Virus record (IMG/VR): IMGVR_UViG_3300050123_000055
Span: 1 to 20,166 of that record
Reading direction: 5' to 3' (one strand)
Length of the DNA stretch: 20,166 bases
Source of the DNA: a virus
Under the pieces are notes generated by a model. It did not search any database. It saw only the letters and a list, made by a program, of their open reading frames with translations, and was not told the origin of the DNA. A program made the position numbers and the translations under genes. This document shows, one piece after another, positions 1 to 4,532 of this stretch; the first letter of the stretch is position 1, and every line of letters starts with the position of its first letter.

Positions 1-1503
1 CTGAGAAAGACTGCCAAACATCTGAAGCGCCGCATCCTGCGTCCATTCCTTTGCGGCTCCAATATCGATTTTAACGCTCCAAACCTTACCCTTTACCTTA
101 ACTGGGTCAAAATCAACAGGATATTTGTTGCCATCGGCATCTATTACCTCTCTCCAACGCGATTCTTTTATGTATGCAAGTGTCATGTCAAGCCAGTTTA
201 AGGCAAATTCACGGGCAAAATTATAATATCGGTTTTGAATTGTCTGAATCGGTATCTTTGACTGTGCGATTGCGGCCAACATGGCGTTGGCATTGGTGGG
301 ATTTATATTTCCAAGGCTCGCGTCACTGTACCCCATCATTTCAAGGGTGTTTTTCAAAAGTGTAGCGGGAAGATTATAAGCGTCTGACGCCATCGATGCA
401 GGTTGCAGATATTTGGCGGCAGAATTTACGTCTCCAATTACTGCAATAGGTTTGGTAATGGAGTTGTCCCACTTTGTCAAACCCGAAGAACGGCTATAAA
501 TGACCTTTGGGCTACTATTTGAAAGCACATATAAAATGGTATATGCAACCGATTTATTAATAGCCACCTGATTGGGGATAAGTCCTGTGATTTCAGCTCT
601 GCCGTGGCATGAATTCTTACGTATTTTCCAATTCATCATACTTATCGGGTATCTTTTTAAAAGCGTGTCCCATGCCTTGCGGATGATTACATTCTTGCAT
701 TGCTTTTGCGCCCATACTGTTCCGTTATCCCTGTAAAGATAGAGCAGGGTTATGACCTTGCCGTCAGCCTTATCCTGTAATTCGGTTTGCGACATGTCGC
801 CACTTTGATATTGATAATCGCTGTCTTTAGTAATAGCATCAACATCGTCCTGCTTTACTTTATTCTTTTTTGCCTCTGCCCTAACGTCCGACAACATTTC
901 ACGCCGAGCAATAATTATGTAGGGCTGTTTCTGCGGGTCACGTTCATTTGTATTACCGGGGTAGTAGTTGACATTGTCAATAGATTCAACTTCCATTTTA
1001 CCTTTTGCCGTCTGACCTGTTTCAGCCTCGTCATCCCAATATGAAAAGAGGATAAAATCACCTGATATACAAGCATCGAGCAACCCCTCTTGACTTATAT
1101 AGTCCATATTAAGGCGTCCCCAGTCCATTTCAAACATGCCGCTTAACTTTTGGGCTTCGGCTTCGTTCAAAAGGAATGGATTTTCACCTCCCGCGGCAAG
1201 CGTCGCAATATTCTGTTGATTTTGTGCGGCAAGTTCGGGAGTGACAACTTTGTCAGGCCAATTCGGAGCTGAAAACAAGACCGCAATTTTGTTTGTGAGG
1301 ACTGATGAAATTTTCTGACCCGTAGCCCTTTCAATAAAATTAATAACAGGCTTAGGAAGGTCAACCGCCGGAGAACCGTGCCACTGATCACCCGCATTAA
1401 ACCGCTCATTTCTCTTGACGGTTTCATAAAGGTTGATAGTGTTTTTATAGTCTATCCCCGATTGATACCGGCTCCATATATCCTCTATACTCGGAGTATT
1501 CAT
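1..1503 (-). CDS. Phage portal protein (3' end beyond the window)
   Basis: I translated the minus strand from ATG at 1503 and found 501 codons without a stop up to the left edge, so the C-terminus is missing. The N-terminus MNTPSIEDIWSRY is followed by an ETVKRNERFNAGDQWHG stretch and LPKPVINFIERATG, the pattern I know from portal proteins of clostridial siphoviruses. The portal is the dodecameric ring at one head vertex through which TerL pumps DNA and to which the tail joins. The start has an AGAGGTGTGACA leader, and the gene begins 2 nt after the stop of the small membrane-protein gene. Its place downstream of TerS-TerL fits the usual packaging order. The family call rests on sequence resemblance and synteny, not on a single catalytic motif. 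Confidence 0.88.
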   Translation of the reverse strand, partial: MNTPSIEDIWSRYQSGIDYKNTINLYETVKRNERFNAGDQWHGSPAVDLPKPVINFIERATGQKISSVLTNKIAVLFSAPNWPDKVVTPELAAQNQQNIATLAAGGENPFLLNEAEAQKLSGMFEMDWGRLNMDYISQEGLLDACISGDFILFSYWDDEAETGQTAKGKMEVESIDNVNYYPGNTNERDPQKQPYIIIARREMLSDVRAEAKKNKVKQDDVDAITKDSDYQYQSGDMSQTELQDKADGKVITLLYLYRDNGTVWAQKQCKNVIIRKAWDTLLKRYPISMMNWKIRKNSCHGRAEITGLIPNQVAINKSVAYTILYVLSNSSPKVIYSRSSGLTKWDNSITKPIAVIGDVNSAAKYLQPASMASDAYNLPATLLKNTLEMMGYSDASLGNINPTNANAMLAAIAQSKIPIQTIQNRYYNFAREFALNWLDMTLAYIKESRWREVIDADGNKYPVDFDPVKVKGKVWSVKIDIGAAKEWTQDAALQMFGSLSQ

Positions 1504-1505
1504 TG

Positions 1506-1772
1506 TCACACCTCTTTATCGCTTGGTAATTCTGCGTTATATGCCGCAAATCGTTCTAAATTTTCTTGCATCTTATCTGAGGACTTCTTACTTTCCGCGT
1601 CCTCCTGCATGGCTTGTACGCCCTCTACGACCGCCCTCACAGGGTTACTTAACTGTTGGGGCAGTTCGTTGCGGTATAACTGCAAGGCGTTGTGTTGCCC
1701 CTTGATAAAGCACCACATGCCAAATACGCAGGTTATCATTCCGCAGACTATTGCTATTAGAATATCAATCAT
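1506..1772 (-). CDS. Small single-pass membrane protein, unknown function
   Basis: This 88-aa protein starts at ATG 1772, preceded by GGAGGAATT; longer in-frame starts lack such a site. The N-terminus (IDILIAIVCGMITCVFGMW, residues 2-20) is a single hydrophobic segment, followed by a charged, probably helical cytoplasmic part rich in Q, E and K. Similar short proteins with an N-terminal membrane anchor occur between terminase and portal in Firmicutes phages; their role is not known to me. It lies between the terminator-ended RNA block and the portal gene and is likely co-transcribed with the portal. A holin is unlikely because only one membrane segment is present and the position is wrong. 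Confidence 0.75.
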   Translation of the reverse strand: MIDILIAIVCGMITCVFGMWCFIKGQHNALQLYRNELPQQLSNPVRAVVEGVQAMQEDAESKKSSDKMQENLERFAAYNAELPSDKEV

Positions 1773-1857
1773 AATTCCTCCATGCCCCGAAGGGTTGACA
1801 GTTTGGGTGAACTCTGTCAAACACTAAATTAGCGTGGTATGCCTCACGCGGATTTAC

Positions 1858-1891
1858 AAAAATAAAAGGGATACAGCCGAAGCCATACCCC
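1858..1891 (-). terminator. Intrinsic terminator ending the structured RNA block
   Basis: On the minus strand, bases 1891 to 1868 form a 10-bp stem (GGGGTATGGC with GCTGTATCCC, three G-U pairs) closed by a TTCG tetraloop. It is followed by a U-rich run, TTTTATTTTT (1867-1858). This is a textbook Rho-independent terminator. It sits inside the packaging operon, upstream of the membrane-protein and portal genes. Either transcription partly reads through, or a separate promoter drives the portal side. Confidence 0.8.
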
Positions 1892-2187
1892 ACTTACCGC
1901 ATTTAGCGGTTTGATTGTGGAGGCTCCGTGTTCGGGAGCAGGCCACTTGATATTTAATTAGTGTTAAGTCCCCACCGTACTTAACATGCAATCGACAGAC
2001 AAAGTTAAATTGTCAATTGCTCCCCACATAAAACTTACCGACAATAGATTCTGACTTTGTCGTACATATTCGGCCTGTATTGTGTGCAATGTTGTGCATT
2101 CCTGCTATCTCAAGTCGTCAATTTGTTAGCCGCCAGACGACAGGCGGCACTCGGGTGTGTTTAAGGTCTTCATCCCGACCGCTAAAG
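1892..2187 (-). ncRNA. Candidate structured RNA, segment 2 (3' part of the block)
   Basis: No convincing reading frame covers this stretch, but it is full of stems on the minus strand. They are GCCGCC/GGCGGC (2129-2148), GTCGTC/GACGAC (2114-2119 with 2136-2141, mutually exclusive or pseudoknotted with the former), YTTG/CAGG (2101-2114), CGACAA/TTGTCG (2039-2062), a 10-bp stem (1988-2020), an 8-bp stem (1962-1986), GCTCC/GGAGC inside GTGG/CCAC (1917-1946) and ACCGC/GCGGT (1896-1910). It ends in the terminator at 1858-1891. The core around 2101-2131 (GGCTAACAA followed by a C(C/T)TG-6nt-CAGG hairpin) recurs in segment 1 with the same spacing. It begins with GCATGTAG, which contains the stop of the upstream 45-aa gene. 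The RNA class is unassigned; large phage RNAs (GOLLD, ROOL) or HEARO/omega-type RNAs are candidates to test. Confidence 0.6.
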
Positions 2188-2189
2188 GA

Positions 2190-2327
2190 CTACATGCTTA
2201 GTCTTTTGATTTCTTCTGATGCCCTTTTGCATTCCTCAAAGAATTTAGGGTCTGTTTTTTGGCTCATAATTCTAAAAAACTCTTCTGTTTTTTCTGGTTT
2301 TACTATAAAAGCAATATTTTCGTTCAT
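2190..2327 (-). CDS. 45-aa phage protein of unknown function
   Basis: ATG at 2327 is preceded by AAAAGGAGCAGAT, a strong ribosome site. The product reads NENIAFIVKPEKTEEFF near the start, then a charged helical tail (DPKFFEECKRASEEIKRL). The VKPEK...EEF pattern reminds me of short clostridial phage proteins without known role. The gene is flanked on both sides by the structured RNA segments, and its TAG stop lies inside the GCATGTAG motif that begins segment 2. No membrane segment or metal-binding motif is visible. It is a real gene judging by its ribosome site and composition; the function cannot be inferred. Confidence 0.65.
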   Translation of the reverse strand: MNENIAFIVKPEKTEEFFRIMSQKTDPKFFEECKRASEEIKRLSM

Positions 2328-2349
2328 ATCTGCTCCTTTTATAAAGTAA

Positions 2350-2497
2350 GCATGTGGGCAATGGACTTTCACCATTGCATGAGAGACTAAATTCCCTGTT
2401 AATTCAGGTGTGCGGTTGTTAGCCCCGCGTTAAGGTTGCCTTCAACGTTACTCTCACGCTACCTACAAGCCTGCGTCTATATTCCGCCACCACATGC
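2350..2497 (-). ncRNA. Candidate structured RNA, segment 1 (closed multi-helix domain)
   Basis: The 148-nt stretch folds on paper into a closed domain. The ends pair as an 8-bp helix (GCATGTGG at 2497-2490 with CCACATGC at 2357-2350). Inside is a second helix (GCGTGAGAG, 2459-2451, with CTCTCATGC, 2385-2377, one wobble). It encloses a hairpin CGTT(G)AAGG/CCTTAACG (2428-2447), a GCGG/CCGC stem around GGCTAACAA (2412-2428) and a CCTG/CAGG hairpin (2395-2408). Next to the closing helix is a perfect 6-bp hairpin CAATGG-TGAAAGT-CCATTG (2359-2377). It lies between the stop of a 39-aa gene and the ribosome site of a 45-aa gene. The function is unknown; it may be part of one long RNA with segment 2. 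Confidence 0.65.
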
Positions 2498-2501
2498 GTA
2501 T

Positions 2502-2621
2502 TTACTTAGAATTTAATATTTTTAAATATTTTCTTTTACTTATATGACCTGCGTAAAATGAATTATGTAGTTCTCTTGTTAGCGATTTTACTTTAAAATA
2601 AGAAACTATTTTATTAATCAT
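2502..2621 (-). CDS. 39-aa basic small protein
   Basis: ATG at 2621 follows an excellent ribosome site, AAGGAGGAAAT. The 39-codon frame encodes a Lys/Arg-rich peptide (INKIVSYFKVKSL, then RELHNSFYAGH and KRKYLKILNSK) with no acidic cluster and no membrane segment. It could be a small RNA- or DNA-binding peptide, or a remnant; nothing specific is recognised. The TAA stop sits 4 nt before the closing helix of structured RNA segment 1. Evidence for translation is the ribosome site and the position between other minus-strand genes. Confidence 0.5.
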   Translation of the reverse strand: MINKIVSYFKVKSLTRELHNSFYAGHISKRKYLKILNSK

Positions 2622-2638
2622 ATTTCCTCCTTAAGTAT

Positions 2639-2821
2639 TTACTTATACCCTTTGCATTTCGTCATGTCTTGATATGCCCTATTTGTGCAATGGCCTTGAT
2701 TATACAAACAGTTTGTATCACCGCAATGTCTAAGCCGTATAACCTCGGGGCAGACGTTCTGACAGTCCTGAACGCATAAAGGTTTTACTGAGGGATTGCA
2801 TATTTCGCAAGGTGAAAACAT
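2639..2821 (-). CDS. 60-aa cysteine-rich small protein
   Basis: The 60-residue product has ten cysteines, spread as CEIC, C..DC...C, C....C and later single cysteines, so it probably binds zinc or is a compact knot. There is no signal peptide, so disulphides are less likely than metal ligands. The start at ATG 2821 has an upstream AGGTGG-type site in TAGGTGGTGGGCTAA. It follows the metallopeptidase gene by 15 nt. Similar Cys-dense small proteins are frequent in clostridial phages without assigned function. Confidence 0.7.
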   Translation of the reverse strand: MFSPCEICNPSVKPLCVQDCQNVCPEVIRLRHCGDTNCLYNQGHCTNRAYQDMTKCKGYK

Positions 2822-2836
2822 TTAGCCCACCACCTA

Positions 2837-3124
2837 TTATTTGAATATGCCAGGGTTGTCTATGATTACCGAATAAAGTCCGCAAGCCATTTGGTCTATT
2901 TGCTTCTCACTTAATCCTGCATGATATTCATTGTCAATCGCATGTAATGCCTCATGCCAAAATGTTTGCTTAATTTTTTGTTCTGAATAGTCTTTCTCAA
3001 TAGATATTTCAAGGGCTTCATAATCGCAAGTCCCATATGCTTTATTTAATCCATGACATACGCCTTTTTCTATTGACACTCCATAAGTAAGACCGGCTAT
3101 TTTTACTTTATCGGGTATGTTCAA
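2837..3124 (-). CDS. Small HExxH zinc metallopeptidase-like protein
   Basis: The 95-aa product contains FWHEALHAIDNEY (about residues 58-70): an HEALH (HExxH) zinc-peptidase motif with a downstream DNEY that could supply the third ligand. The N-terminal NIPDKVKIAGLTYGV and the order 'beta strands, then HExxH helix' match small phage metallopeptidases encoded beside terminase genes (SprT/ImmA-like minimal fold). I chose TTG at 3124 because GGAGG lies 8 nt upstream, inside the last codons of TerL, and the stop of TerL is 1 nt before it; earlier in-frame starts only translate TerL sequence in the wrong frame. The substrate is unknown. A role in head maturation, or cleavage of a host factor, is conjecture. 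Confidence 0.78.
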   Translation of the reverse strand: MNIPDKVKIAGLTYGVSIEKGVCHGLNKAYGTCDYEALEISIEKDYSEQKIKQTFWHEALHAIDNEYHAGLSEKQIDQMACGLYSVIIDNPGIFK

Positions 3125-3125
3125 A

Positions 3126-4532
3126 TTACCATCCTCCTGTGAGATATTCTTCCGTGACTTCGCCACCAAAAAAACTATCAGTGGGTTCTTTAGGTGTGAA
3201 CATTGAAAATGCATCCTGCGGTATTTGTGGCTCAATGTATGTAGCGCACGGCCTTGAAATCGCCCAATACCTTAATGCGTCTGGCAGATGGCTTATGTCA
3301 TGCGGCTCAGGCGAAGTATCGTTGCCATCTTTTGCGCTATACTGCATAAGCGGTAAACACCGAATGAGATTTACGCAATTTTCAAATATCTGTAACCTCG
3401 CCGTGGCCTTACCGCCTTTGTCAAACACTTTCATCCACTCTTTTAGGGCGAGCCATCCCGACACTCTATCGTTGCTTGCTTTCATGTAATAAAGACCGTG
3501 ATTTGCAAAAATCTCTATGGAATTTACCCCCGAGTCTGATTTGCGCGACCATAGATCGGGTGGGGCTATCCTCATGGTTATTTCATCGGTTTCGAGTGAC
3601 TTGATTTTATTTGCTGCCTCACTAACTATCAAACCGTTGTTGTCTCTTGCATCTTTCCCGCTGAAAACTTCCCGATAGACATAGGCCACGTTGTCGGGGG
3701 ATATAGCAATCCAAAGACCAGCGAGAGCATCAAGACCGTAATCTATTACGTTGTATTTGTTCCACCCACTCGGGATGGGAATAGGCTTACACACATGAAT
3801 ATTCTTGTCGAATTCGGTAAAGTACTGCCCTGAGAACGTGTCCCATTCTCCGTTAAGCCATGCCCTACGCAAATTTTCATCCTGGATAGTTTCAAGCGAT
3901 TCTAAGTAATCGGGATCATTCTTCATCAGCCAGTCATTATCGAATACTTTAGCTGGGATAAAACTGAAATCTCTTTTCTTCTCTTTGCCCCTGTACTGTT
4001 GGTCTATAAATAATCTCTTGACCCATGCATGCCCAACGCCCCCGGGGTTACAGGTTATATAAAATCTTTTGGGGTGAAGTGGCATTCCGCCCCTTAAACA
4101 AGCTCTCAAACATGTAAATTGAAACTCGGTAAACTGTGTTCCCTCGTCCATGCATATGATGTCGTATTCCTGCCCTTGATATTGGAGAACGTCTGCCTCT
4201 GCGTCGCAATATCCAAGCTTTAAACGGCTGCCATTTGGAAAGAGAAAAGCCTTTTCATCGTCGTTATAAGTAGCGACACCGTTGAGAATCCCCCGCAGCG
4301 GAATAATATGGTTTTCTCTAAGCTCCTGTATTGTGCGGCGTATCAGTAATATTCTTATCCCTGGATATTCTACTGATAAAAGAATAACTTTCATCCGCAG
4401 CGCCCATGACTTTCCGCCGCCCCGGGCCCCGCCATATGCTATGTATCTACTCCTTGCCTCAAAGAACAGTGTTTGGCGCGCAGATGGTTTGCAGTCGAGC
4501 CAAAGCGTATTCTTCGTTACTTTCTGTCTCAT
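3126..4532 (-). CDS. terL: Terminase large subunit (packaging ATPase/nuclease)
   Basis: The 468-aa protein shows the two-domain layout of the packaging motor. The ATPase domain has Walker A GGARGGGKS (residues 34-42), Walker B IICMDE (125-130) with catalytic Glu, and coupling motif TCNPGG (160-165). The C-terminal RNase H-like nuclease has IDYGLD (first acidic strand) and HDISHLPDALRYW (last metal-site Asp). Together with TerS it recognises and cuts concatemeric DNA and pumps it through the portal. Length is normal for the family and there is no truncation. The start ATG overlaps the TerS stop by 4 nt (ATGA), indicating translational coupling. The ribosome site of the next gene is embedded in its last codons. 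Confidence 0.95.
   Translation of the reverse strand: MRQKVTKNTLWLDCKPSARQTLFFEARSRYIAYGGARGGGKSWALRMKVILLSVEYPGIRILLIRRTIQELRENHIIPLRGILNGVATYNDDEKAFLFPNGSRLKLGYCDAEADVLQYQGQEYDIICMDEGTQFTEFQFTCLRACLRGGMPLHPKRFYITCNPGGVGHAWVKRLFIDQQYRGKEKKRDFSFIPAKVFDNDWLMKNDPDYLESLETIQDENLRRAWLNGEWDTFSGQYFTEFDKNIHVCKPIPIPSGWNKYNVIDYGLDALAGLWIAISPDNVAYVYREVFSGKDARDNNGLIVSEAANKIKSLETDEITMRIAPPDLWSRKSDSGVNSIEIFANHGLYYMKASNDRVSGWLALKEWMKVFDKGGKATARLQIFENCVNLIRCLPLMQYSAKDGNDTSPEPHDISHLPDALRYWAISRPCATYIEPQIPQDAFSMFTPKEPTDSFFGGEVTEEYLTGGW

Follow-up and report, generated by a model that had tools for sequence, protein, structure and literature searches.

The window analyzed here is the whole 20,166-nt stretch of the IMG/VR virus record IMGVR_UViG_3300050123_000055 (positions 1 to 20,166). 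On its minus strand, the genes for the terminase large subunit (TerL; 4532-3126) and the portal protein (1509-1) enclose an interval in which the original prediction had placed a dense block of stems, a closed domain (2497-2350), a possible pseudoknot (2148-2114) and an intrinsic terminator. All of these elements were found at those positions, which confirms that the block is structured. The decisive evidence came from the comparison with homologues; the folding energy was modest, with z = -2.68 for the whole block (0 of 20 shuffles folded as well), -2.41 for 2497-2350 (2 of 200) and -1.6 to -1.8 for the 3′ part. Because these energies are only moderately better than those of shuffled sequences, energy alone would not settle the structure. 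A blastn search of the block against the phage collection returned no homologues of note. A cmscan of window positions 1500-3000 against Rfam (E ≤ 5) gave chance hits only, in agreement with the earlier view that the block cannot be assigned to GOLLD, ROOL or HEARO, and in the Rfam scans of the other loci the domain homologous to 2497-2350 likewise matched no family (GOLLD, ROOL, HEARO, phi29 pRNA or any other). A 39-aa ORF (2502-2621) located just 5′ of the closed domain ends in AAGTAAATAC, as does the gene that precedes it; such a repeat around stop codons may be a sign of where modules begin and end.

The original reading of the block missed the likeness of the 2497-2350 domain to a tRNA. 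The elements of this tRNA-like RNA (TLS) are listed in the table together with the other features of the block. Both their order and the D-arm sequence are those of a class II tRNA (Leu/Ser), and the acceptor-like stem, P1, is 7-8 bp long in the family. In the window, the D-arm has 3 bp, is of the class II (tRNA-Leu/Ser-like) type and lacks G18G19, and the G18G19-U55C56 elbow is absent (D-loop GAATATAGA, T-loop TGAAAGT). A normal anticodon arm is absent from TLS and is replaced by an insert, which ranges from 38 to 455 nt across the family, and no CCA is encoded. ARAGORN called neither a tRNA nor a tmRNA in the window, and no tRNA at the TLS of the other loci tested. The features by which the family is defined, P1, D-arm and T-arm in tRNA order with covariation across the family, are all found in the window.

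Table. Features of the structured block, in 5′ to 3′ order along the minus strand
Feature	Position	Strand	Observation
Whole tRNA-like RNA (TLS), 148 bases	2350..2497	-	92.8 bits with model R1 (a training-set score; R1 was trained on 23 sequences, window included); covariation
Acceptor-like stem P1, 5′ strand GCATGTGG	2490..2497	-	pairs with 2357-2350 CCACATGC
U8-G9 (TG) and D-arm GCG-GAATATAGA-CGC	2473..2489	-	near-invariant family motif
Hypervariable insert, 94 nt, replacing the anticodon arm	2379..2472	-	unrelated even between similar cassettes
P3 stem GAGAG/CTCTC inside the insert	2455-2451 / 2385-2381	-	ends 2 nt 5′ of the T-arm
T-arm GCAATGG-TGAAAGT-CCATTGC	2358..2378	-	7 bp, 7-nt loop, T54...A58
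Acceptor-like stem P1, 3′ strand CCACATGC	2350..2357	-	family covariation
45-aa ORF (MNENIAFIVKPEK...) between modules	2190..2327	-	optional, not conserved
Pseudoknot: GCC...GGC hairpin, loop GTCGTC pairing with downstream GACGAC	2114..2148	-	recurs in 5 other contigs
Optional module M, ~147 nt	1958..2104	-	nearly constant where present
3′ module TCAAGTGGCCTG-stem-CCTCCACAA-stem-GTGGGG	1868..1950	-	includes terminator hairpin 1891-1868
U-tract of the intrinsic terminator	1858..1867	-	pattern scan
Right flank rejoined by L093	1838..1857	-	L093 reads ...AAGTAAATCCGCGTGAGG... directly, without the cassette

Each scan of the collection used a single arm, either the D-arm or the T-arm, and required neither P1 pairing nor the opposite arm. 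These scans recovered the same architecture in more than 60 viral contigs. The exact 18-nt D-arm string was present in 27 IMG/VR contigs, in most of which the 5′ flank, although different each time, was complementary to the segment directly after a T-arm located 40-450 nt downstream. The T-arm-only pattern matched in 26 contigs and 4 bacterial genomes, and in nearly all of these loci a D-arm and a matching acceptor stem were found 5′ of the T-arm; the exact T-arm pattern of the window's own TLS was not found elsewhere in the collection. Full-length matches to R1 were obtained at all 24 T-arm loci searched (48-99 bits), 11 of which are outside the training set, and true tRNA-Leu genes scored only 25-33 bits with the same model.

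The alignment of 23 sequences had 98.8% of its cells paired, with changes on both sides in 13 of the 18 pairs. The covariation score was 0.69, compared with 0.15 in shuffles, none of which (0 of 500) matched it, and the paired cells fell to 33-47% in every control in which the register was slid. The same picture was given by 91 matches to R1, an alignment that was fitted to this model and includes a few tRNA-Leu genes. Changes on both sides affect 7 of the 8 P1 pairs across the family, and the junction-proximal pair is invariably G-C in alignment A2. The D-arm stem shows a double change from GCG/CGC to GTG/CAC, and the T-stem shows double changes at all 7 pairs (91 model matches). The acceptor core comprises 7 bp, with each pair formed in 96-100%; an eighth pair is formed in 77%, and pairing decays further out. 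Thus, on the two points by which the original prediction proposed to be judged, the homologues covary strongly in the tRNA-like part, and the stems carry no conserved reading frame. The 2497-2350 domain almost certainly belongs to a widespread phage RNA family whose tRNA-like fold is under selection. The earlier suggestion of a possible new class agrees with the lack of any matching Rfam family and with the open-access literature, in which we found no description of this RNA; an earlier description might exist elsewhere. On that open-access basis, TLS is a new family within a known kind, the tRNA-like non-coding RNAs.

The D-loop and the T-loop change together. C56 was found in the T-loop of 9 of 9 members with AGG in the D-loop and in 2 of 40 members without it (Fisher 2.7e-8, a value that overstates independence, since members of the same subtype are partly related). 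We read this association as the G19-C56 elbow contact of tRNA. The elbow subtype with AGG and C56 is a minority that comprises phi3T, SBSphiJ, Goe3 and Paenibacillus members; the other subtype, to which the window belongs, has lost both sides, and G18G19/C56 is lost in most members of the family. Furthermore, the T-stem and the acceptor together often span 13-14 bp instead of 12. This length and the loss of G18G19/C56 indicate that many TLS members could not be handled as a normal tRNA.

Within the insert, P3 ends exactly 2 nt before the T-stem. In 42 members, the summed stem length at this position gave z = 10 relative to shuffled inserts, and the signal was at background (z near 0) from an offset of 6 nt on. 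The value of 10 was reached only with the fixed 2-nt tail; when P3 was sought with loose ends, the signal was weak. L005, L020, L024 and L041 belong to one phage group and share the acceptor stem and the flanks; their inserts are 70, 131, 84 and 109 nt long, respectively. The window, L039, L048, L104 and L105, which are similar in stems, flanks and 3′ module, have inserts that differ in length or show no relationship to one another. Enlarged D-loops occur in L039 and L045, and the T-loops of L104 and L105 have 8-9 nt extra between G55 and C56. Pairing of the P3 loop with the linker that joins the D-arm to P3, which would form a pseudoknot, is striking in L012 (TTAGGTA/TACCTAA) and L005, but p < 0.05 was reached in just 4% of members, and we rejected it as a family-wide feature. 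The hypervariability could also mean relaxed constraint on a spacer domain.

Among known RNAs, YrlA (RF02553), a non-coding RNA of phages and bacteria, resembles TLS in having a module made of a D-arm, a T-arm and an acceptor-like stem. A stem of YrlA binds Rsr/Ro60, and its tRNA-like module binds PNPase (PMC8394870). However, YrlA is circularly permuted, with the T-arm before the D-arm, whereas TLS keeps the tRNA order, and YrlA adjoins Ro60, which the window lacks. RF02553 did not match any TLS scanned. In L047, YrlA (2006-2112) and TLS (2243-2406) lie side by side as separate genes, and this coexistence, together with the different arm order, led us to reject TLS as YrlA. L047 is a large tRNA-array phage that carries, at 515-2508, a Ro60 (TROVE) gene, the YrlA-like RNA (36.6 bits, under the Rfam cut-off), a tRNA, TLS and a tRNA in tandem. 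Like TLS, tmRNA (RF00023) has the tRNA order and a long insert where a tRNA has its anticodon arm, but TLS has no tag ORF, a tRNA-Leu-like D-arm whose stem is 3 bp, and inserts that go down to 38 nt. The Rfam tmRNA model reached 6.8 bits in the window, outside TLS; neither ARAGORN nor Rfam called a tmRNA, no tag reading frame is present, and TLS as tmRNA was rejected.

The class II tRNAs (Leu/Ser) share with TLS the D-arm (GTGGCGGAAT..AGACGC), the 7-bp acceptor core and T54-A58, and differ from it in the normal anticodon arm, in G18G19, which TLS has mostly lost, in U55, which is G55 in TLS, and in the T-stem, which in TLS is often 6-7 bp. Judged by its sequence, TLS is not a functional tRNA. 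In two tRNA-rich phages (L008 and L016), ARAGORN does not call several genes that resemble tRNA-Leu but have oversized inserts; these are possible intermediates between tRNA-Leu and TLS. In engineered tRNA-scaffold RNAs, which are artificial, a tRNA body carries a cargo RNA where its anticodon arm would be; TLS has the same layout, but it is natural and its elbow contacts are degenerate. GOLLD and ROOL are phage-borne structured RNAs that are often found near tRNA islands (PMC12286853). TLS is far smaller, has another fold and has no Rfam match.

The cassette is absent from six contigs (L090-L095) with terminases 90-97% identical to that of the window. One of them, L093, is a clean empty site in which the flanks are joined directly, with the right edge exactly at window position 1857 and AAGTAAAT-type repeats at stop codons at the left edge. 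Since the cassette is missing in relatives with such similar terminases, it is accessory. It lies between TerL and the portal gene in the window and L105, and upstream of TerL in L048, L104, L106 and L039. Of the 39 loci whose large neighbors were scanned, the window counted, 12 have TerL at a distance of about 5 kb or less; this is a raw count, and the choice of large neighbors favors TerL. The other neighbors of the family include DnaB, UvsX, integrases, methylases, an RNA ligase and Ro60, and 12 of 52 members have a tRNA gene no more than 500 nt away, compared with 3.8 expected. Twelve of 100 Paenibacillus genomes have a family match (counted per genome, prophage or not). The phi3T member, flanked by yonK and the HU-like gene yonN, scored 50.5 bits with R1, and in Bacillus herelleviruses (the SBSphiJ and Goe3 groups) the member lies among RNA genes upstream of the portal gene. 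The annotated proteins phi3T_57 (L082 2616-2768) and Goe3_c06000 (L086 3084-3224) overlap TLS RNA and are probably spurious annotations. Downstream of the phi3T TLS there is a DUF3800-VIII RNA (RF03075; L082 3873-3938), with more long hairpins between the two. In L014, a skipping-rope RNA (RF02924; 7356-7438) begins 3 nt 3′ of TLS, an arrangement that suggests that phage RNA-gene clusters mix several RNA classes.

The 3′ part of the block (2148-1858) is a second conserved module, found 3′ of TLS in L039, L048, L104 and L105. The GTCGTC/GACGAC loop pairing of its pseudoknot is invariant in 6 loci and shows no covariation, and in the stem 1939-1935/1927-1923, 4 of the 5 pairs have changed on both sides across the 6 loci, a thin sample of six sequences that represent essentially two alleles. 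The terminator at 1891-1858, found by the pattern scan as GGGGTATGGCTTCGGCTGTATCCC-TTTTATTTTT with the hairpin helix GGGGTATGGC/GCTGTATCCC, is conserved in L048, L104, L105 and L106; in L039, the module runs into the start of the terminase gene before the terminator. L106 has an intact 3′ module 3′ of a truncated TLS, of which only the 3′ half is present (about 4300-4345, minus strand), with a canonical TTCAAAT loop in the T-arm; this is a truncated or recombined copy. Module M is present in the window, L039, L104 and L105 and absent from L048 and L106. The 45-aa gene that the original prediction saw embedded in the block does exist as a reading frame, but it is missing from every homologous cassette (L039, L048, L104, L105 and L106) and has no relative in phages and no Pfam family. 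The hairpin-rich stretches between TLS and the 3′ module at L104 5100-5330 and L105 4400-4640 differ between phages and are possibly further optional RNA modules.

These observations bear on the earlier model of a single ornate RNA of about 640 nt, in which TLS would be the 5′ domain. Such an RNA is distinctly unlikely, even though TLS and the 3′ module share one terminator in the window, L048, L104 and L105, and L039 keeps the 3′ module as far as the terminase start: most TLS members have no such module, there is free variation in the ORF, in module M and in how long the spacer is, L106 combines the module with half a TLS, and the closing helix TTTAGCGGT/ACCGCTAAA is not conserved. This long-range helix, proposed by the MFE structure, was dropped when its partner proved not to be kept in L104; a 9-bp long-range match of this kind was reached in 8 of 300 shuffles. 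Instead of one RNA, there are at least two separable modules, the tRNA-like RNA and the pseudoknot-terminator, between which optional pieces may lie. The comparison shows a mosaic of RNA modules that are gained and lost independently between phages. What stood of the original interpretation is the structured RNA, its place between terminase and portal genes and the lack of an Rfam class; the single large RNA did not.

TLS itself is very probably a trans-acting RNA gene. The opposite view, that the fold is a cis-acting element serving as an RNase P/RNase Z processing signal or as a leader that controls the downstream operon gene, draws on the ribosome-binding site and ATG within a few nucleotides 3′ of the fold in the window and L012, and on the usual orientation of members in the gene direction. 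It is nevertheless unlikely, as the 3′ neighbors differ (an ORF in the window, the pseudoknot module in L048, a tRNA gene in L047, L032 and L033, the skipping-rope RNA in L014) and a processing signal does not need a hypervariable structured insert of 38-455 nt. Adjacency to the terminase suggests a pRNA-like packaging RNA or a packaging-site element, and the relatives of the window do carry the cassette between TerS and TerL or between TerL and the portal gene. Nonetheless, the RNA is missing in phages that have the same neighborhood and a terminase 90-97% identical to that of the window, many members adjoin DnaB, UvsX, integrase, methylase or tRNA genes instead, and there is no Rfam pRNA match; with the TerL proximity described above as its other support, a packaging role is very improbable. 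Both the cis-acting leader and the packaging role are less likely than a decoy or adaptor. The idea that TLS members are decaying tRNA-Leu pseudogenes without function takes its appeal from the tRNA-Leu/Ser type of the D-arm and from the few loci that also carry tRNA-Leu genes. It is hardly tenable, because compensatory double changes in all helices in unrelated phages already contradict decay, the D-loop and T-loop change in a coordinated manner, and P3 keeps a fixed register.

The best explanation overall, to which we give a probability of roughly 0.6, is that small RNA genes make up the block and that the block is an accessory cassette; its main element would be a tRNA-derived non-coding RNA with a variable domain in place of the anticodon arm. 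The sequences by themselves establish the fold, the selection on it, the spread across unrelated phages, the dispensability in near relatives and the preference for the neighborhood of tRNA genes. Such an RNA would be transcribed within the late operon or a tRNA cluster, host enzymes that mature tRNAs would trim or protect it, and it would act in trans, with its tRNA body binding a host tRNA-binding protein; candidate partners are a defense effector, an RNA-decay enzyme and a tRNA-modifying enzyme. The variable domain would then give specificity or block the bound protein, which would make TLS an adaptor or a decoy for a host factor. We put this forward, tentatively, as the leading function. 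Phage elements that are accessory and diversify quickly often serve host conflict, which is one reason for this ranking. The other is an analogy, the binding of PNPase by the tRNA-like module of YrlA (PMC8394870). Against the overall explanation stand the missing CCA, the frequent 13-14 bp of T-stem plus acceptor, the loss of G18G19/C56 in most members, the alternative reading of the hypervariability as relaxed constraint, and the result that no anti-defense gene was consistently linked to TLS loci. It is possible, if doubtful, that TLS RNAs form a new and widespread class in which the tRNA body is a natural scaffold that displays the hypervariable domain in an accessory, RNA-based counter-defense, as a decoy or inhibitor of a host protein that targets or binds tRNA.

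Because phi3T, SBSphiJ and Goe3 carry members and grow on laboratory strains of Bacillus subtilis, the function can be tested now. The TLS family probably also explains some of the small hypothetical proteins annotated in these Bacillus phages as mis-annotated RNA. To our knowledge, RNAs that mimic tRNA are few, namely tmRNA, bacterial Y RNAs and plant-virus 3′ ends. Phages would have a new route to the host tRNA-binding machinery in a large family of RNAs that keep the tRNA order, have a degenerate elbow and carry a hypervariable domain where the anticodon arm would be.
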